Assembly: GCA_040881665.1 (NCBI GenBank)
Contig: JBBECT010000005.1
Coordinates: 588,138 to 652,137 of the forward strand
Length of the DNA: 64,000 bases
Direction: 5' to 3'
DNA from: Actinomycetota bacterium
Lineage (GTDB): Bacteria > Actinomycetota > UBA4738 > HRBIN12
Below are positions 48,990-56,976 of the stretch, piece by piece (the stretch's first letter is position 1; each line of letters starts with the position of its first letter). The notes beneath the pieces were generated by a model, which was given only the letters and a program-made list of their open reading frames with translations, made no database searches and was not told where the DNA came from. Made by a program: the position numbers and the translations under genes.

Positions 48990-49055
48990 GTGAACGCCAG
49001 CACGAACGCGCCTGCTGCCCCCAGGTACGCGCGTGCACCCGCGCGCGGATGGTGA
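48990..49055 (+). CDS. Short upstream ORF overlapping the pit start
   Basis: GTG at 48990 follows AAGGAG with 9-nt spacing and opens 21 codons (VNASTNAPAAPRYARAPARGW) ending at TGA 49053-49055, across the pit ATG/GTG. The pit start itself has no clear Shine-Dalgarno, so ribosomes finishing this leader could restart there. Translation of the leader is inferred. Confidence 0.35.
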   Translation: MNASTNAPAAPRYARAPARGW

Positions 49056-50014
49056 ACCCCTCCGACGTGCTGGTCGGCGCCCTGGCGGTGACGTTCGTCG
49101 TGGTCAACGGCTCGAATGACGGCGCCGCCCTCGTCGCGAGCGGCCTGTCGATCCGGGCGCTCGCTCCCGGGGTGGCGATCGCCCTCTCGGCGCTGGCGGT
49201 CGCTCTCGTCCCGGCGGTGGTGGGAACCCGGGTCGCCACCACGCTGGCCGATCGCATGGTGTCCTTCGGCGAGCAGGGTGGACGGGCGGCGCTCGCCTCG
49301 GCGGTGGCGGCCTCGCTGCTCGTGGTGGGAGTCCTGATCCGTCTCCGGTTGCCGACGAGCATGACCGTCGCGATCGTCGGGGGGATCGCCGGGGCGGGTG
49401 TCGGTGCGGGCCTGGAGGTCGGCTGGGGAACGATCGCACTCGTCCTGGGACTCGCCGTCGCCGCTCCCCTGCTGGGGTTCGCGATCGCGTTGGCCGCGAT
49501 GCGCCTCGTCCAGCTACGAGGCGCCACGTCGGCCCCCGCGGCCCGCCGACTGCGTCGTGGCCATATCGTCGGGTACTGTGCGCAGGCCGTGGCCTACGGT
49601 GTGAACGACGCGCAGAAGATGTATGCGGTGACGGCGGTCCTGTTCGCCGCATCGTCGGATCCGGTGCTCGCCCGACCGCTCCCGTCGCTCGCGATCGCGG
49701 GAGGGTTCGCAGCCGGCGCCGTGATCGGGCTCCCACGGCAGGCCTCGACGGTCGCCACCGGGGTCCTCGCCCTCCGACCCCTGCAGACGGTCGTCGGCGA
49801 GTTCGCGACCGCGGCGGCGGTGATCGGCACCGGGCTGCTCGGGGCGCCGGTCAGCTCCACCCAGACGATGCTCGGCGCTCTCGTCGGGACCGGAGTGAGC
49901 CAGGGATCTCGTCGGGTCCGATGGCGGATCGCCGCCCAGCTCCTGGTCGCCTGGGCGATCACGATGCCCGCTGCGTTCGTGGTCGGGCTCGCGCTGGGAG
50001 CGGTGACGGCGTGA
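49049..50014 (+). CDS. pit: Inorganic phosphate transporter (PiT family)
   Basis: Membrane transporter of 321 residues with about ten helices and the duplicated PiT signature: VVVNGSNDGAAL at residues 17-28 and AYGVNDAQKMYAV near 190, plus PVSSTQTMLGALVG. It is a low-affinity phosphate/metal-phosphate symporter. The start (ATG 49049 or GTG 49052) lacks a clear ribosome site. The stop overlaps the GTG of the DUF47 gene, the usual regulatory partner. Confidence 0.93.
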   Translation: MVNPSDVLVGALAVTFVVVNGSNDGAALVASGLSIRALAPGVAIALSALAVALVPAVVGTRVATTLADRMVSFGEQGGRAALASAVAASLLVVGVLIRLRLPTSMTVAIVGGIAGAGVGAGLEVGWGTIALVLGLAVAAPLLGFAIALAAMRLVQLRGATSAPAARRLRRGHIVGYCAQAVAYGVNDAQKMYAVTAVLFAASSDPVLARPLPSLAIAGGFAAGAVIGLPRQASTVATGVLALRPLQTVVGEFATAAAVIGTGLLGAPVSSTQTMLGALVGTGVSQGSRRVRWRIAAQLLVAWAITMPAAFVVGLALGAVTA

Positions 50015-50664
50015 AAGAGCCACGCGGATCCCGGCTCCGGAGGTTCGCCCGCGATCTCGCGGGACGATCCGACATCGACTTCGTCGCCGCTCTTGGGGCG
50101 CATATCGACGCGACGCTGCGCGGATGTGCGATCGCACGCGACCTTGTCGAGCGTCGCGTTCCCGCCGAGGAGGCGCATCGCCGGATCGCCGACGCCGAGC
50201 ACGACGGGGACGACGCGCGTCACCGGCTGATCGAGCTCCTCGCGCGGTCCCTCGCGACACCGATCGACCGTGAGGACCTGTTCCGTCTGTCCCGGTCGAT
50301 CGACGATGTGCTCGACAACCTGCGGGACTTCATCCGGGAGCTCGAGCTCTACGAGGTCCGGCCCCCCGTGTCGGTGGGCACGATCATCGTCGCGATCACC
50401 GAGGGGATGTGGATGCTGCGCGATGCCGTCGACGCACTCGCGTCGGAGCCCGGCGCGGTCACGGGCTCGGCCCTCGCCGCGAAGAAGCGCGGCAACCGCG
50501 TGCGGATCGGCTATGAGACGGCCGTCGTCGAGGTCCTCACCGGATCGGTGACCGCCGAGATGCTCCGGCGCCGGGAGCTCCTGCGCCGGCTCGACGTGGT
50601 CGGCTTGCGATTGGGAGAGGCTGCGGACGCCCTCTCGGACGCGTCGATGAAACGGAGCCACTGA
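50011..50664 (+). CDS. DUF47/PhoU-like partner of the phosphate transporter
   Basis: Helical PhoU-like protein of 217 residues: ...HEDGDDARHRLIELLARS-type acidic helix (HDGDDARHR), SIDDVLDNLRDFIRELELYEV, and a long C-terminal helical hairpin. DUF47 proteins are usually encoded with PiT carriers and are thought to regulate them. GTG 50011 overlaps the pit stop (GTGA). Confidence 0.9.
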   Translation: MKEPRGSRLRRFARDLAGRSDIDFVAALGAHIDATLRGCAIARDLVERRVPAEEAHRRIADAEHDGDDARHRLIELLARSLATPIDREDLFRLSRSIDDVLDNLRDFIRELELYEVRPPVSVGTIIVAITEGMWMLRDAVDALASEPGAVTGSALAAKKRGNRVRIGYETAVVEVLTGSVTAEMLRRRELLRRLDVVGLRLGEAADALSDASMKRSH

Positions 50665-50705: not shown

Positions 50706-52133
50706 TCAGAGGGGGACGTGCGAGAGCACCATGATGCGGGGCTCGGTCATCTCCTCCATCGCCCAGCGCAGGCCCTCCCGGCCGAAGCCGGAGTCCTTCG
50801 AGCCGCCGTAGGGCATCTGGTCGGCGCGGAAGGCCGAGACGTCGTTCACGATCACGCCGCCGGTCTCGATCGTCCGATGCGCCTGGAACGCCCGGTTGAT
50901 GTCGTTGGTGAACACCCCGGCCTGCAATCCGTACTTCGAGTCGTTCACCTCCGCGAGCGCGTCGTCGAACGTCTCGTAGGGCGTGATCGTGGCGACCGGA
51001 CCGAAGACCTCCTCGCAGCGAACCTTCATCTCGGGCGTGGTGTTCGCGAGCAGCGTCGGCACATAGCACGTGCCCTCCCGCCGCCCGCCGGTGAGCAACT
51101 CGGCTCCGGCGGCGACGGCTTCGTTCACCCACTGCTCGATCCGGTCGAGCGAACCCGCGTCGATCACGGGGCCGACGTCGACGGTCGGGTCCATCGGGTC
51201 ACCGACCTTCAGGCTCTCGACCTGCTTGACCACGCGCGCGACGAAGTCCTCGTAAACCTCGGACTGGACGAGGATCCGCTGCACGCTGATGCAGCTCTGA
51301 CCCGCCTGATAGTAGCCGCCGAACGCGACGCGCTGGGCGGCGAGGTCCAGGTCGGCGTCCGAGTGCACGATCACTCCGGCGTTCCCGCCGAGCTCGAGGG
51401 TGACGTGCTTGCGGGGATCGAGACCCTTGAGGTACCAGCCGACACCGGACGATCCGGTGAAGGAGATCTTCCGGTAGCGCTCGTCGCGCGCCATCGTATC
51501 GGCGACCTTCGAGGAGACCGGCAGCACCGACATCATCCCCTTCGGCAGGTCGGTCTCGGCGAACAGCTCCGCCAGCACGAGCGCCCCGATCGGCGTGGCG
51601 CTCGCCGGCTTGATCACGATCGGCGCCCCGACGCCGAGTGCCGGCGCCACCTTGTGCGCAACGAGGTTCAGCGGGAAGTTGAACGGTGAGATCCCGAGCA
51701 CGGGACCGAACGGGAAGCGCCGGATCAGGCCGACCCGAGACCCGAGGGACGCCTCCGTATCGAGCCGGACGAGCTCGTCGTCGCCGTGCCTGATCACCTC
51801 GGACGCCCACCGGTAGGTCGACACCGCGCGGGTCGCCTCGACCGTGGCCCACTTCAGGGGCTTGCCGCCCTCGGCGGCGATCAGCCTCGCGTTCTCCTCG
51901 ATCCGATCCTCGAGCCGGCGTGAGATGTGGTCGAGAGCGTCGGCCCGGGCATGGACGGGCAGATGCTGGGACTCGGTGAACGTCTCGGACGCCGCCGCGG
52001 TCGCCTCTTCGACGTCCGCTTCGGTCGGGATCCCGATCTCACCGACGACGCTGCCGTCGTAGGGGCTGTGGACCTCGAAGGAGTCGTCCCCCGTTCGCCA
52101 CGACCCGTTCACCAAGTAGGGCCTCGCGCTCAT
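50706..52133 (-). CDS. Aldehyde dehydrogenase, probable succinate-semialdehyde type
   Basis: NAD(P)-dependent aldehyde dehydrogenase of 475 residues. Catalytic Cys is in YYQAGQSCISVQR and Glu in TLELGGNAG; cofactor motifs include FTGSSGVGW. The C-terminal MPYGGSKDSGFGREG is family-typical. With GabT and an aminobutyraldehyde-type dehydrogenase in the same island, oxidation of succinate semialdehyde to succinate is the likely role; the motifs do not exclude other aldehydes. ATG 52133 follows AGGAGGCACG, 8 nt past the previous stop. Confidence 0.85.
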   Translation of the reverse strand: MSARPYLVNGSWRTGDDSFEVHSPYDGSVVGEIGIPTEADVEEATAAASETFTESQHLPVHARADALDHISRRLEDRIEENARLIAAEGGKPLKWATVEATRAVSTYRWASEVIRHGDDELVRLDTEASLGSRVGLIRRFPFGPVLGISPFNFPLNLVAHKVAPALGVGAPIVIKPASATPIGALVLAELFAETDLPKGMMSVLPVSSKVADTMARDERYRKISFTGSSGVGWYLKGLDPRKHVTLELGGNAGVIVHSDADLDLAAQRVAFGGYYQAGQSCISVQRILVQSEVYEDFVARVVKQVESLKVGDPMDPTVDVGPVIDAGSLDRIEQWVNEAVAAGAELLTGGRREGTCYVPTLLANTTPEMKVRCEEVFGPVATITPYETFDDALAEVNDSKYGLQAGVFTNDINRAFQAHRTIETGGVIVNDVSAFRADQMPYGGSKDSGFGREGLRWAMEEMTEPRIMVLSHVPL

Positions 52134-52141
52134 CGTGCCTC

Positions 52142-53593
52142 CTAGTCGAGGGACGCCATCACGTGCTTGATGTTCGTGTACTCCTCGATCGAGTAGATCG
52201 ACATGTCTTTGCCGTGGCCGGACTCCTTGTAGCCGCCGTGCGGCATCTCGGGCGTCAGCGGGATGTGGGTGTTGATCCACACGGTGCCGAATTGGAGCTT
52301 GCGACTCATCCGGAGCGCGCGACCGACGTCGCGGGTCCACACCGACGCGGCGAGTCCGTACTTGACACCGTTGGCCCACGCGAGCGCTTGCTCCTCGTCG
52401 GCGAACCGCTGCATCGTGATCACCGGTCCGAACACCTCGTTCTGGATGATCTCGTCGTCCTGCTCCATCCCGGTGAGCACGGTCGGCTGGAACCAGAAGC
52501 CGTCGCGGTCGATCCGCTGGCCGCCGGTCGCCGCCGTGATCCCCCGCGACTTCGCGCGGTCGACGAAGCCGGTGATCCGTTCGAGCTGTTCGGACGACAC
52601 GACCGACCCCATCGCTGACTCGTCGTCCCAGATGTCGCCGACCTTCATCGCGTTCACGTTGTCGACGACCTTGTCGACCAGCTTCTCGTACATACCCGGA
52701 CCGGCGATCACCCGGGTCGCAGCGGTGCAGTCCTGCCCGGAGTTGAAGGTGCCGGCGACCTGAATCCATTCGGCCGCCGCCGCGATGTCCGCGTCGTCGA
52801 ACACGATCACCGGGGCCTTGCCGCCGAGCTCAAGATGCACGCGCTTGAGCGTGTCGGCGGCGTTGCGGCTGATCAGCTTCCCCGTGTCGACGTCGCCGGT
52901 GAGCGACACGATGCCGACGTCGGGGTTGCGGACGAGGGCGTCGCCGGCGGGAACGCCGTCACCGGTCACGACGTTGAACACGCCGGGCGGGAAGATCTCC
53001 GCCTCCTGGATCAGCTCGGCGAAGCGCAGGAGCGTTAGCGGGGTCCACTCCGAGGGCTTGATCACGATGCTGTTGCCCGCCGCGAGCGCCGGGCCGAGCT
53101 TCCAGGTCGCCATGTACAACGGGTAGTTCCACGGAGCGATCAGACCGGCGACCCCGATCGGCTCGCGCCGGATGAAGCTCGTGAATCCCTTCATGTACTC
53201 GCCCGCCGCGCGGCCTTCGAGGAGCCGCGCGCCGCCCGCGAAGAAGCGGAACTGATCGGCGATCACGGGGATCTCCTCGGACATCGTCAGCGCGAAGACC
53301 TTCCCGACGTTCTCCGACTCGATCCGCCCGAGCTCCTCACCGTGCTTCTCGACGAGGTCGGCCATCTTCAGCAGCGCGGCCTGCCGCTCGCCCGGTGTGG
53401 CGTCGGACCAGGTCGACTCGAATGCGGTCTTCGCAGCATCGACGGCACGGTTCACGTCATCGGCGGAGGCCTTCGGGACCTGCGCGATCACCTGCCCACT
53501 CGCCGGGCTGATCACGTCCTGGGTCTCGCCGGTCGAGGAGTCAACCCATTCCCCGTTGATGAACATCTTGTGGGTCTTGACGGACGTGGCCAT
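52142..53593 (-). CDS. Aldehyde dehydrogenase, probable gamma-aminobutyraldehyde type
   Basis: Aldehyde dehydrogenase of 483 residues with cofactor site [21 protein letters not shown], catalytic Glu in LELGGKAP and Cys in [12 protein letters not shown]. It resembles PatD/YdcW-type enzymes that oxidise 4-aminobutyraldehyde to GABA in putrescine breakdown. ATG 53593 is preferred over 53602 because GAGGGGG is 9 nt upstream. It heads an operon with the 50706-52133 gene. A TGTAC-N5-GGACA dyad lies about 134 bp upstream. Confidence 0.87.
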
Positions 53594-53726
53594 CCTCGAC
53601 ATCCCCCTCGTGCTGAGCGTTGTGCCGATCCACGGCGGCGCCGGGCCGGAAGCCGAGCGTCCAGTATGCCCCGCAGGGCCCGGAACGGACCACCCCGCGA
53701 GGTGGCCACCGCGCCGGGCGCGCGAT

Positions 53727-53741
53727 TGTACGGAGGGGACA
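53727..53741. promoter_or_regulatory. Predicted PucR operator, copy 1 (dehydrogenase operon)
   Basis: TGTACGGAGGGGACA, with flanking T and A extending the dyad to TTGT...ACAA, lies in the 198-bp gap between pucR's stop and the dehydrogenase start. It matches the copy at 55351 at 13 of 15 positions, including the core CGGA. Two occurrences at the two promoters of one pathway argue for a shared regulator. Confidence 0.6.
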
Positions 53742-53791
53742 ACGACCGGAGGACCCGATGGAGACCGTGTCCACGCCGGGGGGAGGTCCCG

Positions 53792-55339
53792 TTACCGCTG
53801 CTGCGCACCCGCCGCGAGCAGCTCGCGAGCCCGCAGCGCGAGCCAGAACTCCATACGGTCGAACGAGGAGGTCAGATCCCGGCCGGTGAGCTCCTCCACC
53901 TTGCGCATCCGGTAGCGGAGGGTGTGCCGATGGACATAGAGCTGGGTGGAGGCCGTCTCCCACCGGGCGTTGTTGTTCAGGAAGGCCTCGAGCGAGGCGA
54001 GCAGCTCCCCACCGTGCGCCGTGTCATAGACGTCGAGGGGGGCAAGCAGGGAGTCCGCGAATGCCCGGAGCGCATCCGGATCGGCCATCGACAGCAGCAA
54101 GCGGTACGTGCCGAGGTCGCCGAACCCCGCGCTGCGCCACCCCTCGAGACGGCAGACCTGGAGGGCGTACCGCGCCTCGCGCAGGCTCCGGGCGGTGTCC
54201 ATCGGGCCCACGAGGTCGCCCGCTCCCAGCCGGAGGTCGTCCCCCACCTTGGCGCGCAGCGTCTCGGCCAGCAACTCCAACTCGGGTTCCCCGTCCTCGG
54301 CGAGCAGCAGGTGCACGCCGTCCTCGTGGGGCGAGACCAGGAACGCACCCGTGCGGCGGGACAGCAGGTCCGCCGCCGCGTTGGCGATGACCTCCGGTTC
54401 CCCGCCCTCGATCGAGACGACCCGGACCTTCGCCCCGCGGGCGAACCCGAACCGCGCGAGTCCCCGGAGGGCCTCCGGCTCATGCAGCAGTCCCTTCGCG
54501 AGCTCGTCGAAGAAGTCCCCCTGCAGCCGGCGGCGTGCGTCGGCGACCGCGCGCGCCTTCGCCAGCTCGATCGCCACGAGCGAGAGCGCGTGCCCTGCCA
54601 CGATACGGTCGACCTGTGTCGGGCTCTCGGGTTTGCCCACCGCCAGGAACGCTTCGATCCCGCCGCGCGCGCCCACCGGCTGGACCCATACGTGATGGCC
54701 GCGGTCCACGAGCGTGATCGAGAACCCTGTCCCCTCGGGGCGGGAGGAGCGCAGCTCGTCCCAGACACGAGCTCGCCGCTGCTCTGCGGCCTTGGACGTC
54801 TCCGCGAGCGGCATGCCGTGCAGGTCGAAGAGCAACACCCATCCGTGCACCGCCTTGGCGAGCGAAGCGGCGATCCCCTCCACCCCTTCGCCCTCGAGCA
54901 CAGCGCGGGTCAACGCGTGCTCAGCGTCGAACGCCCGTTGGAGCGTGTCGTACTGCTCGGCAACCAGCCGCGTGAAGAGCGCCTCGGTGATCGCGATGAA
55001 CGGAACGTCGTAGGGGATCTCGATCAGCGGGAGCGCGGCCGCCTCAGCGGCGGCGGCGAGCGGCTTGGGCACTTTGTCGTGGGAGAAACCGAGGCCGAAT
55101 CCGAGTCCCACCACGCCCGCGTCGGCGAGGCGCTTGACGTAGGCGCGCTGTTTGGCCGGCGTGGCCCCGACGCCCATGCCGGTCGTCAGGATCAACTCCC
55201 CTCCCTTGAGGAACGGGGTGGGATCCTCGAGCTCGCTCACGTGTACCCACCGCAGCGGCCGGTCGGCACCGGTGGCGCCGGCGGTGAGCCGCAGGCCGAG
55301 GTCGGGAGCGCGGAGGAAGTCCTCGATCGTGACCGTCAT
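53792..55339 (-). CDS. PucR-family transcriptional regulator
   Basis: Regulator of 515 residues. An N-terminal PucR ligand domain (TIEDFLRAPDLGLRLTAGATGADRPLRWVHVSELEDPTPFLKGGELILTTG) is followed by a middle GGDEF-like/GAF-like region and a C-terminal PucR HTH (VHRHTLRYRMRKVEELTGRDL). Such proteins control purine, polyamine or GABA catabolism in actinobacteria. ATG 55339 follows AAGGGGCG. A dyad at 55351-55365 overlaps its leader, suggesting autoregulation. It is divergent from gabT. Confidence 0.92.
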   Translation of the reverse strand: MTVTIEDFLRAPDLGLRLTAGATGADRPLRWVHVSELEDPTPFLKGGELILTTGMGVGATPAKQRAYVKRLADAGVVGLGFGLGFSHDKVPKPLAAAAEAAALPLIEIPYDVPFIAITEALFTRLVAEQYDTLQRAFDAEHALTRAVLEGEGVEGIAASLAKAVHGWVLLFDLHGMPLAETSKAAEQRRARVWDELRSSRPEGTGFSITLVDRGHHVWVQPVGARGGIEAFLAVGKPESPTQVDRIVAGHALSLVAIELAKARAVADARRRLQGDFFDELAKGLLHEPEALRGLARFGFARGAKVRVVSIEGGEPEVIANAAADLLSRRTGAFLVSPHEDGVHLLLAEDGEPELELLAETLRAKVGDDLRLGAGDLVGPMDTARSLREARYALQVCRLEGWRSAGFGDLGTYRLLLSMADPDALRAFADSLLAPLDVYDTAHGGELLASLEAFLNNNARWETASTQLYVHRHTLRYRMRKVEELTGRDLTSSFDRMEFWLALRARELLAAGAQQR

Positions 55340-55350
55340 CGCCCCTTGAG

Positions 55351-55365
55351 TGTACGGAATGGACA
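55351..55365. promoter_or_regulatory. Predicted PucR operator, copy 2 (pucR/gabT region)
   Basis: TGTACGGAATGGACA lies 12 nt upstream of the pucR start codon in the 284-bp region shared with gabT. Arms TGTAC and GGACA (TGTCC reversed) form a dyad. The same element occurs at 53727. Its place next to the pucR start suggests repression of its own gene. The rest of the region (55366-55623) shows no other clear element. Confidence 0.6.
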
Positions 55366-55623
55366 AAATCTGCCGACGGACGCAACGGGGCGCCCGTTCC
55401 CCCGGGTCCAGGTACCCCGGCCTCTACCCCGGCGCCGCCGGCCTCTGCGCCGACGTCCGAACCACCCGGGCACCGACGGAGCCGTATCGACGACATGGAC
55501 AAGCCGCGCACACCGGGTTGGTCCACCCATCGGGCGACAGGCGGGCGGTGTCCCGCGAAACTCGATACACCGGCCCACGCGAACCGCACGCCGCACAGGT
55601 GCCCGAGGAGGCGCGAGCAGACC

Positions 55624-56976
55624 ATGGACATCCCTCAAGAGCGGAAGATCGTCACCGAGATCCCGGGTCCGAGGACGAAGGAATGGATCGAACGCCGGAC
55701 GAGCGCCGTCCCCTCCGGCGTCGCCAACCTCATGCCGCTGGTGACCGAGCGGAGCTCCGGAGCGATCGTCGAGGACGTCGACGGCAATCGGTTCATCGAC
55801 CTGGCGACCGGTATCGCGGTGTTGAACGTGGGCCACACCTCTCCCTACGTCGTCGACGCGATCGTTCGCCAGGCCGAACGGGAGACCCACACGTGCTTCA
55901 GCGTGACGATGAACGAGCCGTACATCGAGCTCGCAGAACAGCTGAACCGCCTGATCCCGATCGAGGGCGGTGACCCCAAGACCTTCTTCATGAACTCGGG
56001 CGCCGAGGCCGTCGAGAACGCGGTGAAGGTGTCGCGGCAACACACGCGTCGCGACGCGGTCGTGGTCTTCGATCACGCGTTCCATGGACGGACCCTGCTC
56101 ACGATGTCGATGACGGCGAAGGTCATGCCGTACAAGCGCGGGTTCGGCCCGTTCGCGTCGGAGATCTACCGGCTCCCCTTCGCCTACCCGTACCGGCCGA
56201 TCGGCGGGACGGCCACGCCGGAGGAGGTGACCTCCCGGACGGCGGCGTATGCGATCGACCAGATGACCAAGCACATCGGCACCGACAACATCGCCTGCCT
56301 CGTCGTCGAACCGATCCAAGGCGAAGGCGGCTTCGTCGTTCCGTCCCCCGGCTACCTCCCGACGTTGCGCGAGTTCTGCGCGCAGCACGGGATCGTGTTC
56401 GTGGCCGACGAGATCCAGACGGGCTTCGGTCGCACGGGTGACTGGTTCGCGGTCCAGCACGAGGGTGTGGAGCCCGACGTGATGACGACCGCGAAGGCGC
56501 TCGGTGGCGGCATGCCGATCTCGGCGATCACCGGGCGTCCGGAGATCATGGACGCCGCGCACGTCGGCGGGCTCGGCAGCACCTACGGAGGCAACCCCGT
56601 CGCCGCCGTCGCGGGGCTCGGAGTGATCGAGCAGATCGGATCCGAGAACCTCGTGCAGCGCTCGCGCGAACTCGGCGCCACGGCCATGGACAAGCTCCGC
56701 GAGTTGGAGACCGCACACGAGGTGATCGGCGAGGTTCGCGGTCGCGGGATGATGCTCGCGATCGAGCTCGTCGCCGATCGGAGCACGAAAGAGCCGTTGG
56801 ACAAGGCGATCTGCGCGCGCATCACCGATGCCTGCATGCAGCAGGGCGTCCTCGTGCTCCGGGCGGGAACCTACGACAACGTGATCCGATTGCTGCCCCC
56901 TCTCGTGATCGACGAGGGGCTGCTCCTCGAGGGACTCGATGTCCTCGGCGAAGCGATCGGCGCCGCGACCGCGTGA
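55624..56976 (+). CDS. gabT: 4-aminobutyrate aminotransferase
   Basis: Class III PLP aminotransferase of 450 residues: FMNSGAEAVENAVK, AFHGRTLLTMSMT, VVEPIQGEGG, FVADEIQTGFGRTG and PLP Lys in TTAKALGGG. It converts GABA and 2-oxoglutarate to succinate semialdehyde and glutamate. Context fits: a PucR regulator divergent, a semialdehyde-type dehydrogenase and a polyamine transporter nearby. ATG 55624 follows GAGGAGG with somewhat long spacing. Related putrescine transaminase activity cannot be ruled out. Confidence 0.93.
   Translation: MDIPQERKIVTEIPGPRTKEWIERRTSAVPSGVANLMPLVTERSSGAIVEDVDGNRFIDLATGIAVLNVGHTSPYVVDAIVRQAERETHTCFSVTMNEPYIELAEQLNRLIPIEGGDPKTFFMNSGAEAVENAVKVSRQHTRRDAVVVFDHAFHGRTLLTMSMTAKVMPYKRGFGPFASEIYRLPFAYPYRPIGGTATPEEVTSRTAAYAIDQMTKHIGTDNIACLVVEPIQGEGGFVVPSPGYLPTLREFCAQHGIVFVADEIQTGFGRTGDWFAVQHEGVEPDVMTTAKALGGGMPISAITGRPEIMDAAHVGGLGSTYGGNPVAAVAGLGVIEQIGSENLVQRSRELGATAMDKLRELETAHEVIGEVRGRGMMLAIELVADRSTKEPLDKAICARITDACMQQGVLVLRAGTYDNVIRLLPPLVIDEGLLLEGLDVLGEAIGAATA

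Follow-up and report, generated by a model that had tools for sequence, protein, structure and literature searches.

The window, by which the whole stretch of 64,000 nt that was analysed is meant, contained a gene for a PucR-family regulator transcribed divergently from gabT, and two aldehyde dehydrogenase genes in one operon on the same strand as pucR (Table 1). The transaminase and the aminobutyraldehyde dehydrogenase both scored above their curated cut-offs, which identified a polyamine/GABA catabolic cluster. The gabT start was set by alignment, and the pucR start was the ATG at 55337-55339. Membership of the window PucR in its family followed from its domains, PF07905 (N-terminal PucR domain, 120.6 bits) and PF13556 (HTH_30, 71.1 bits), both above cut-off, and the protein also carried the GGDEF-like PF17853 (46.4 bits, cut-off 24.5). 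PucR-family regulators are common in Actinomycetota. The best-matching NCBIfam model was that of PmfR from Arthrobacter (NF045769), through the N-terminal PucR domain, at 113.6 bits with a cut-off of 800, so the window protein is not a PmfR; the AdeR model (NF058503) gave 45.8 bits, below its cut-off of 700. A solved full-length relative of the window PucR was not found, the nearest chains being Rv2242 (9f80) and a polyketide-synthase regulator (3onq). At 49049-50664, between the pot operon of the window and the dehydrogenases, reading of the sequence suggested a phosphate-transporter-like gene and, after it, a PhoU-like gene.

Table 1. Genes, putative operators and predicted promoter elements of the window
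Feature	Position	Strand	Evidence
pucR	53792..55339	-	PF07905, PF17853 and PF13556 all above cut-off
gabT, 4-aminobutyrate--2-oxoglutarate transaminase	55624..56976	+	TIGR00700, 549.7 bits (cut-off 506.65)
Aminobutyraldehyde dehydrogenase	52142..53593	-	NF010000, 692.3 bits (cut-off 615)
Second aldehyde dehydrogenase, next in operon	50706..52133	-	PF00171; gene order kept in relatives
Putative operator A, TTGTCCCCTCCGTACAA, before aminobutyraldehyde dehydrogenase operon	53726..53742	-	19.5 bits, relatives-only matrix
Predicted -10 hexamer CATACT, dehydrogenase promoter	53663..53668	-	Conserved hexamer at 62-66 nt, 13/13 loci
Putative operator B, TTGTCCATTCCGTACAC, over pucR promoter	55350..55366	-	Orthologous place holds palindrome in 17/17 relatives
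Predicted pucR -10 hexamer TACACT, within operator B, 9 nt from ATG	55349..55354	-	TACAAT-N6-8-ATG/GTG of relatives
Weak candidate operator C, ATCGACGACATGGACAA, gabT	55486..55502	+	9/14 match, at canonical 63 nt from GAAACT
Predicted gabT promoter, -35 GCGACA (55534-55539) and -10 GAAACT (55557-55562)	55534..55562	+	Offsets of relatives

The first-pass annotation had proposed that two similar 15-mers were a PucR operator shared by two promoters, and these lay exactly at 53727-53741 and 55351-55365. Neither the window nor the complete 2.46 Mb genome contained any other exact match to TGTACGGANNGGACA (about 0.04 expected from base composition). The distance of 12 nt from the pucR start, ambiguously worded in that annotation, was correct for the 55351 site and incorrect for the 53727 site. 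Chance placement of the pair had also been called unlikely; this was not borne out by the pair alone, as 441 of 1000 Markov shuffles of both gaps (44%) held 15-mers at least as alike (13/15), and the pairwise likeness of the two 15-mers by itself proves nothing. This window-only statistic was not significant; the verdict on chance was decided by conservation in relatives. An accidental likeness of two short stretches in GC-rich DNA would agree with the shuffles, but it is refuted by the conservation of the sites across relatives, each of the two sole copies in the genome lying in register with a site conserved in essentially all of them, and its probability is negligible. A further TGT-N9-ACA near potD (48925), put forward as a weaker site, was rejected as an operator: the window had seven such patterns, and around potD the motif was matched at 8-9 of 14 positions at best.

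Among 27 genomes of the same family or order, the window's included, 19 had a close pucR orthologue and 18, again including the window's, had DNA upstream of it; the order is known here only from metagenome-assembled genomes. The palindrome TTGTACG-N3-CGTACAA ended 7-9 nt before the pucR start in all other same-order orthologues with upstream sequence (17/17). It matched at 13-14 of 14 positions in 16 of the 17 relatives and at 11 in the remaining one, whereas shuffled upstream DNA scored at least 12/14 in 0.01% of cases. The arms paired at 6-7 of 7 positions in 16/17 relatives. The DNA flanking the palindrome on both sides was far less conserved, which argues that conservation of the palindrome is not mere relatedness. 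The TGTAC/GGACA consensus of 15 bp was retained as to its putative operator role and revised as to its extent, the true unit being these 17 bp, which at operators A and B run on the minus strand, with the right arm the stronger. In the relatives the right arm read TACAAT, followed after 6-8 nt by ATG or GTG, which suggests that it doubles as the -10 box of a pucR promoter predicted to be leaderless. Operator B of the window was weak (13.6 bits vs 19-33 bits in relatives; E = 1.13 in its own genome by profile search) and lay 10 nt from the ATG.

Conservation upstream of orthologous genes, which the first-pass annotation had named as a check, extended from pucR to the aldehyde dehydrogenase in every locus and to gabT in most. 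A matrix trained on the pucR sites of relatives, with the window left out, picked operator A of the window. Upstream of the dehydrogenase, the best-scoring sequence agreed with TTGKMC-N3-CCGTACAA at 12-14 of 14 positions (13/13 loci). In relatives the pucR-gabT gap contained another site, asymmetric and in most cases separated by 51-70 bp from the one at pucR; its CGTACAA arm pointed towards gabT. An unbiased palindrome search of 41 whole genomes found, besides pucR, the potA-potD-potB-potC operon located elsewhere in the genome, which across relatives mostly carried TTGTCCGTTCCGTACAA or a variant of it. With a profile of 37 sites over 15 genomes, the 31 best matches all fell on one of four promoters (pucR, gabT, dehydrogenase, potA), and a match elsewhere did not appear before rank 32; the recovered sites had themselves served for training, and the informative part of this result is the absence of other strong matches. 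Comparison of relatives thus supports the motif as the putative operator common to a regulon of four promoters.

Other matches were treated as chance. The palindrome matches in G006 (C32) and G012 (C37) were apparently inside coding sequence, that of L053 was in a coding region, and that of G028 was near an unrelated open frame. A third match in the window's genome (L057, G000:C5:406349) adjoined an open reading frame of thiamine-phosphate-kinase type, as read from its sequence, and had no comparative support. The potA orthologue of the window's genome (L133, G000:C5:470520-471641), which belongs to the transporter operon regulated in relatives, had no site, and the operator was lost there.

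Distances from the operator centre to the first base of the conserved -10 hexamer, the hexamers being predicted rather than mapped and picked by eye before measuring, were 62-66 nt at the dehydrogenase (13/13 loci), 61-64 nt at potA (9/9) and 62-64 nt at gabT (12/13), where a -35 box of CTGACA type was at 39-42 nt. One spacing, 61-66 nt, was common to these three non-homologous promoters, and at all three, with their predicted -10 boxes, the operator was upstream of the -35 region at a set distance, as is required of an upstream activator. In the window, CATACT and the centre of operator A were 66 nt apart. Operator C, overlooked by the first-pass annotation, was found by this geometry; the offsets of GCGACA and GAAACT from it (+40 and +63) matched those of CTGACA and GACACT/GAGACT in relatives, and its variant arm TGGACAA was also present in one relative (L073) at the canonical gabT place. 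The constant spacing outside the core promoter leads to the prediction that the operator, at about -75, occupies a typical activator position. At pucR, negative autoregulation is predicted from the location of the operator over the -10 box.

Repression by PucR at every one of its promoters, relieved by an inducer, is quite unlikely. The overlap of operator B with the pucR -10 box would suit a repressor, and EpuRI of Streptomyces coelicolor was reported to repress glnA4 (PMC6529630); however, at the dehydrogenase, gabT and potA the operator is outside the core promoter at a constant distance, the mark of polymerase contact, and most studied PucR-type regulators are activators (PMC7652997). A repressor-only reading, based on the site over the pucR -10 box, was dropped once the constant spacing had emerged. 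It is very improbable that the motif is a promoter element, such as the extended -10 of a special sigma factor, instead of an operator: its right arm doubles as TACAAT at pucR, but it is palindromic, at three promoters it stands well upstream of a distinct -10 box, and it is confined to four promoters per genome.

The eight family or order genomes without a pucR match all kept the dehydrogenase (8/8), and six kept gabT. Seven of them had a dehydrogenase promoter that could be read; these kept the -10 box, and their 17-mer at the expected place matched at 4-12 of 14 positions (five at 7 or fewer) vs 10-14 in 15 pucR-bearing loci (P = 0.0002, related sequences treated as independent). The gabT 17-mer scored 6 without pucR vs 8-13 with it (P = 0.001). 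Operators of gabT and the dehydrogenase decayed or were absent where pucR was missing, while genes and -10 boxes stayed; the operator therefore follows the regulator, and the lineages that lost pucR provide a natural experiment in regulatory decay. As an exception, three genomes of genus g4 (L127, L129 and L131, in G016, G013 and G003) kept a strong potA operator, and no PucR-family protein above cut-off was found in these three genomes. Recent loss of PucR is the simplest reading of this exception, with another binder as the alternative. A small open frame whose sequence reads as universal-stress-protein-like (L175, 836-1495; L180, 2925-3618) occupied the place expected for pucR, between gabT and the dehydrogenase, in genera g3 and g4.

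A different regulator of the same polyamine genes might bind the operator, pucR being just one of its targets, and the potA operator of g4 would be explained by it. This is unlikely, given that decay of the operators at gabT and the dehydrogenase accompanied the absence of pucR, that the strongest sites were those at pucR, which would suit an autoregulator, and that no other regulator gene was seen in the cluster.

The preferred reading, held with high though not full confidence, is that operators A and B are bound by the PucR encoded between them, which would activate polyamine/GABA genes and limit itself. The operator role that had been assigned to the shared motif is supported by its conservation in relatives, its constant spacing, the confinement of the best profile matches to four promoters, and the decay of the gabT and dehydrogenase sites on loss of pucR, with PucR as the putative binder. 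PucR would be a sensor-type regulator whose effector is probably GABA or a polyamine-derived intermediate. It would bind the 17-bp inverted repeat with the stronger half, CGTACAA, facing the regulated gene. From a site about 75 bp before the predicted starts of the dehydrogenase operon and gabT, and of potADBC in most relatives, PucR would contact RNA polymerase and activate transcription. At its own promoter, predicted to be nearly leaderless, it would sit on the -10 box, block the polymerase and limit its own synthesis. More tentative, and rather doubtful, is a strict form of this promoter rule (asymmetric operator at about -75, self-covered -10 box) in which one oligomer would bridge the sites of the pucR-gabT gap and couple self-repression to gabT activation. 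Points against the preferred reading were the weak pucR site and the degenerate gabT site of the window, the potA orthologue without a site, and the potA operator of g4 without PucR.

Most characterised PucR-type regulators are activators, and GabR of Corynebacterium glutamicum, of the same family, activates gabT and binds two inverted repeats in the gap, which lie immediately before the gabT -35 box and overlap its own promoter region (PMC7652997). The system of the window resembled it in having a PucR-family regulator divergent from gabT, two putative sites in the gap and, by prediction, a similar working. GabR has no GGDEF-like domain, unlike the window PucR with PF17853, which is therefore not of GabR type, and GabR has 21-bp repeats and is apparently a local regulator of gabTDP, whereas here a 17-bp repeat was also present at dehydrogenase and transporter operons. 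In S. coelicolor, EpuRI (SCO1614) bound in gel shifts to its own promoter and to those of the aldehyde dehydrogenase sco5657 and the ABC-transporter gene sco5654, and EpuRII (SCO5656) bound to the gabT-like gene sco5676 (PMC8998196, PMC6529630). These regulators of mono- and polyamine genes have targets comparable to those found here; the two reports give gel shifts without a binding motif, and EpuRI was reported as a repressor, unlike the activation predicted here. One large-genome relative (G047) had no operator of at least 14 bits around the homologues examined. According to PMC7652997, where they are cited, PutR (17-bp inverted repeat) and AdeR (24-bp) of Bacillus subtilis are PucR-type activators of amino-acid catabolism; in that account the PutR repeat has the same length as the one found here, while substrates and genes differ.

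The analysis defines a putative 17-bp operator, a polyamine/GABA regulon of four promoters and a fixed predicted activation distance. To our knowledge few operators of the PucR family are known, and no earlier report of this 17-bp motif was found in the freely accessible literature searched. The kind of gene switch is familiar, and this PucR system is probably a new, well-supported example of it in a group that is known here only from environmental genomes.

Thermoleophilia homologues of pucR (about 40% identity; L084, L090, L092, L095 and L096) carried TTGGACATGATGTAGAA, or this sequence with one change, at the same place. This derived 17-mer overlay a TAGAAT -10 box of pucR, and a relation to the pucR operator as its counterpart is suggestive only. 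The Thermoleophilia loci had, in addition, a conserved half-site of AGAACGTACAA type about 85 nt upstream.
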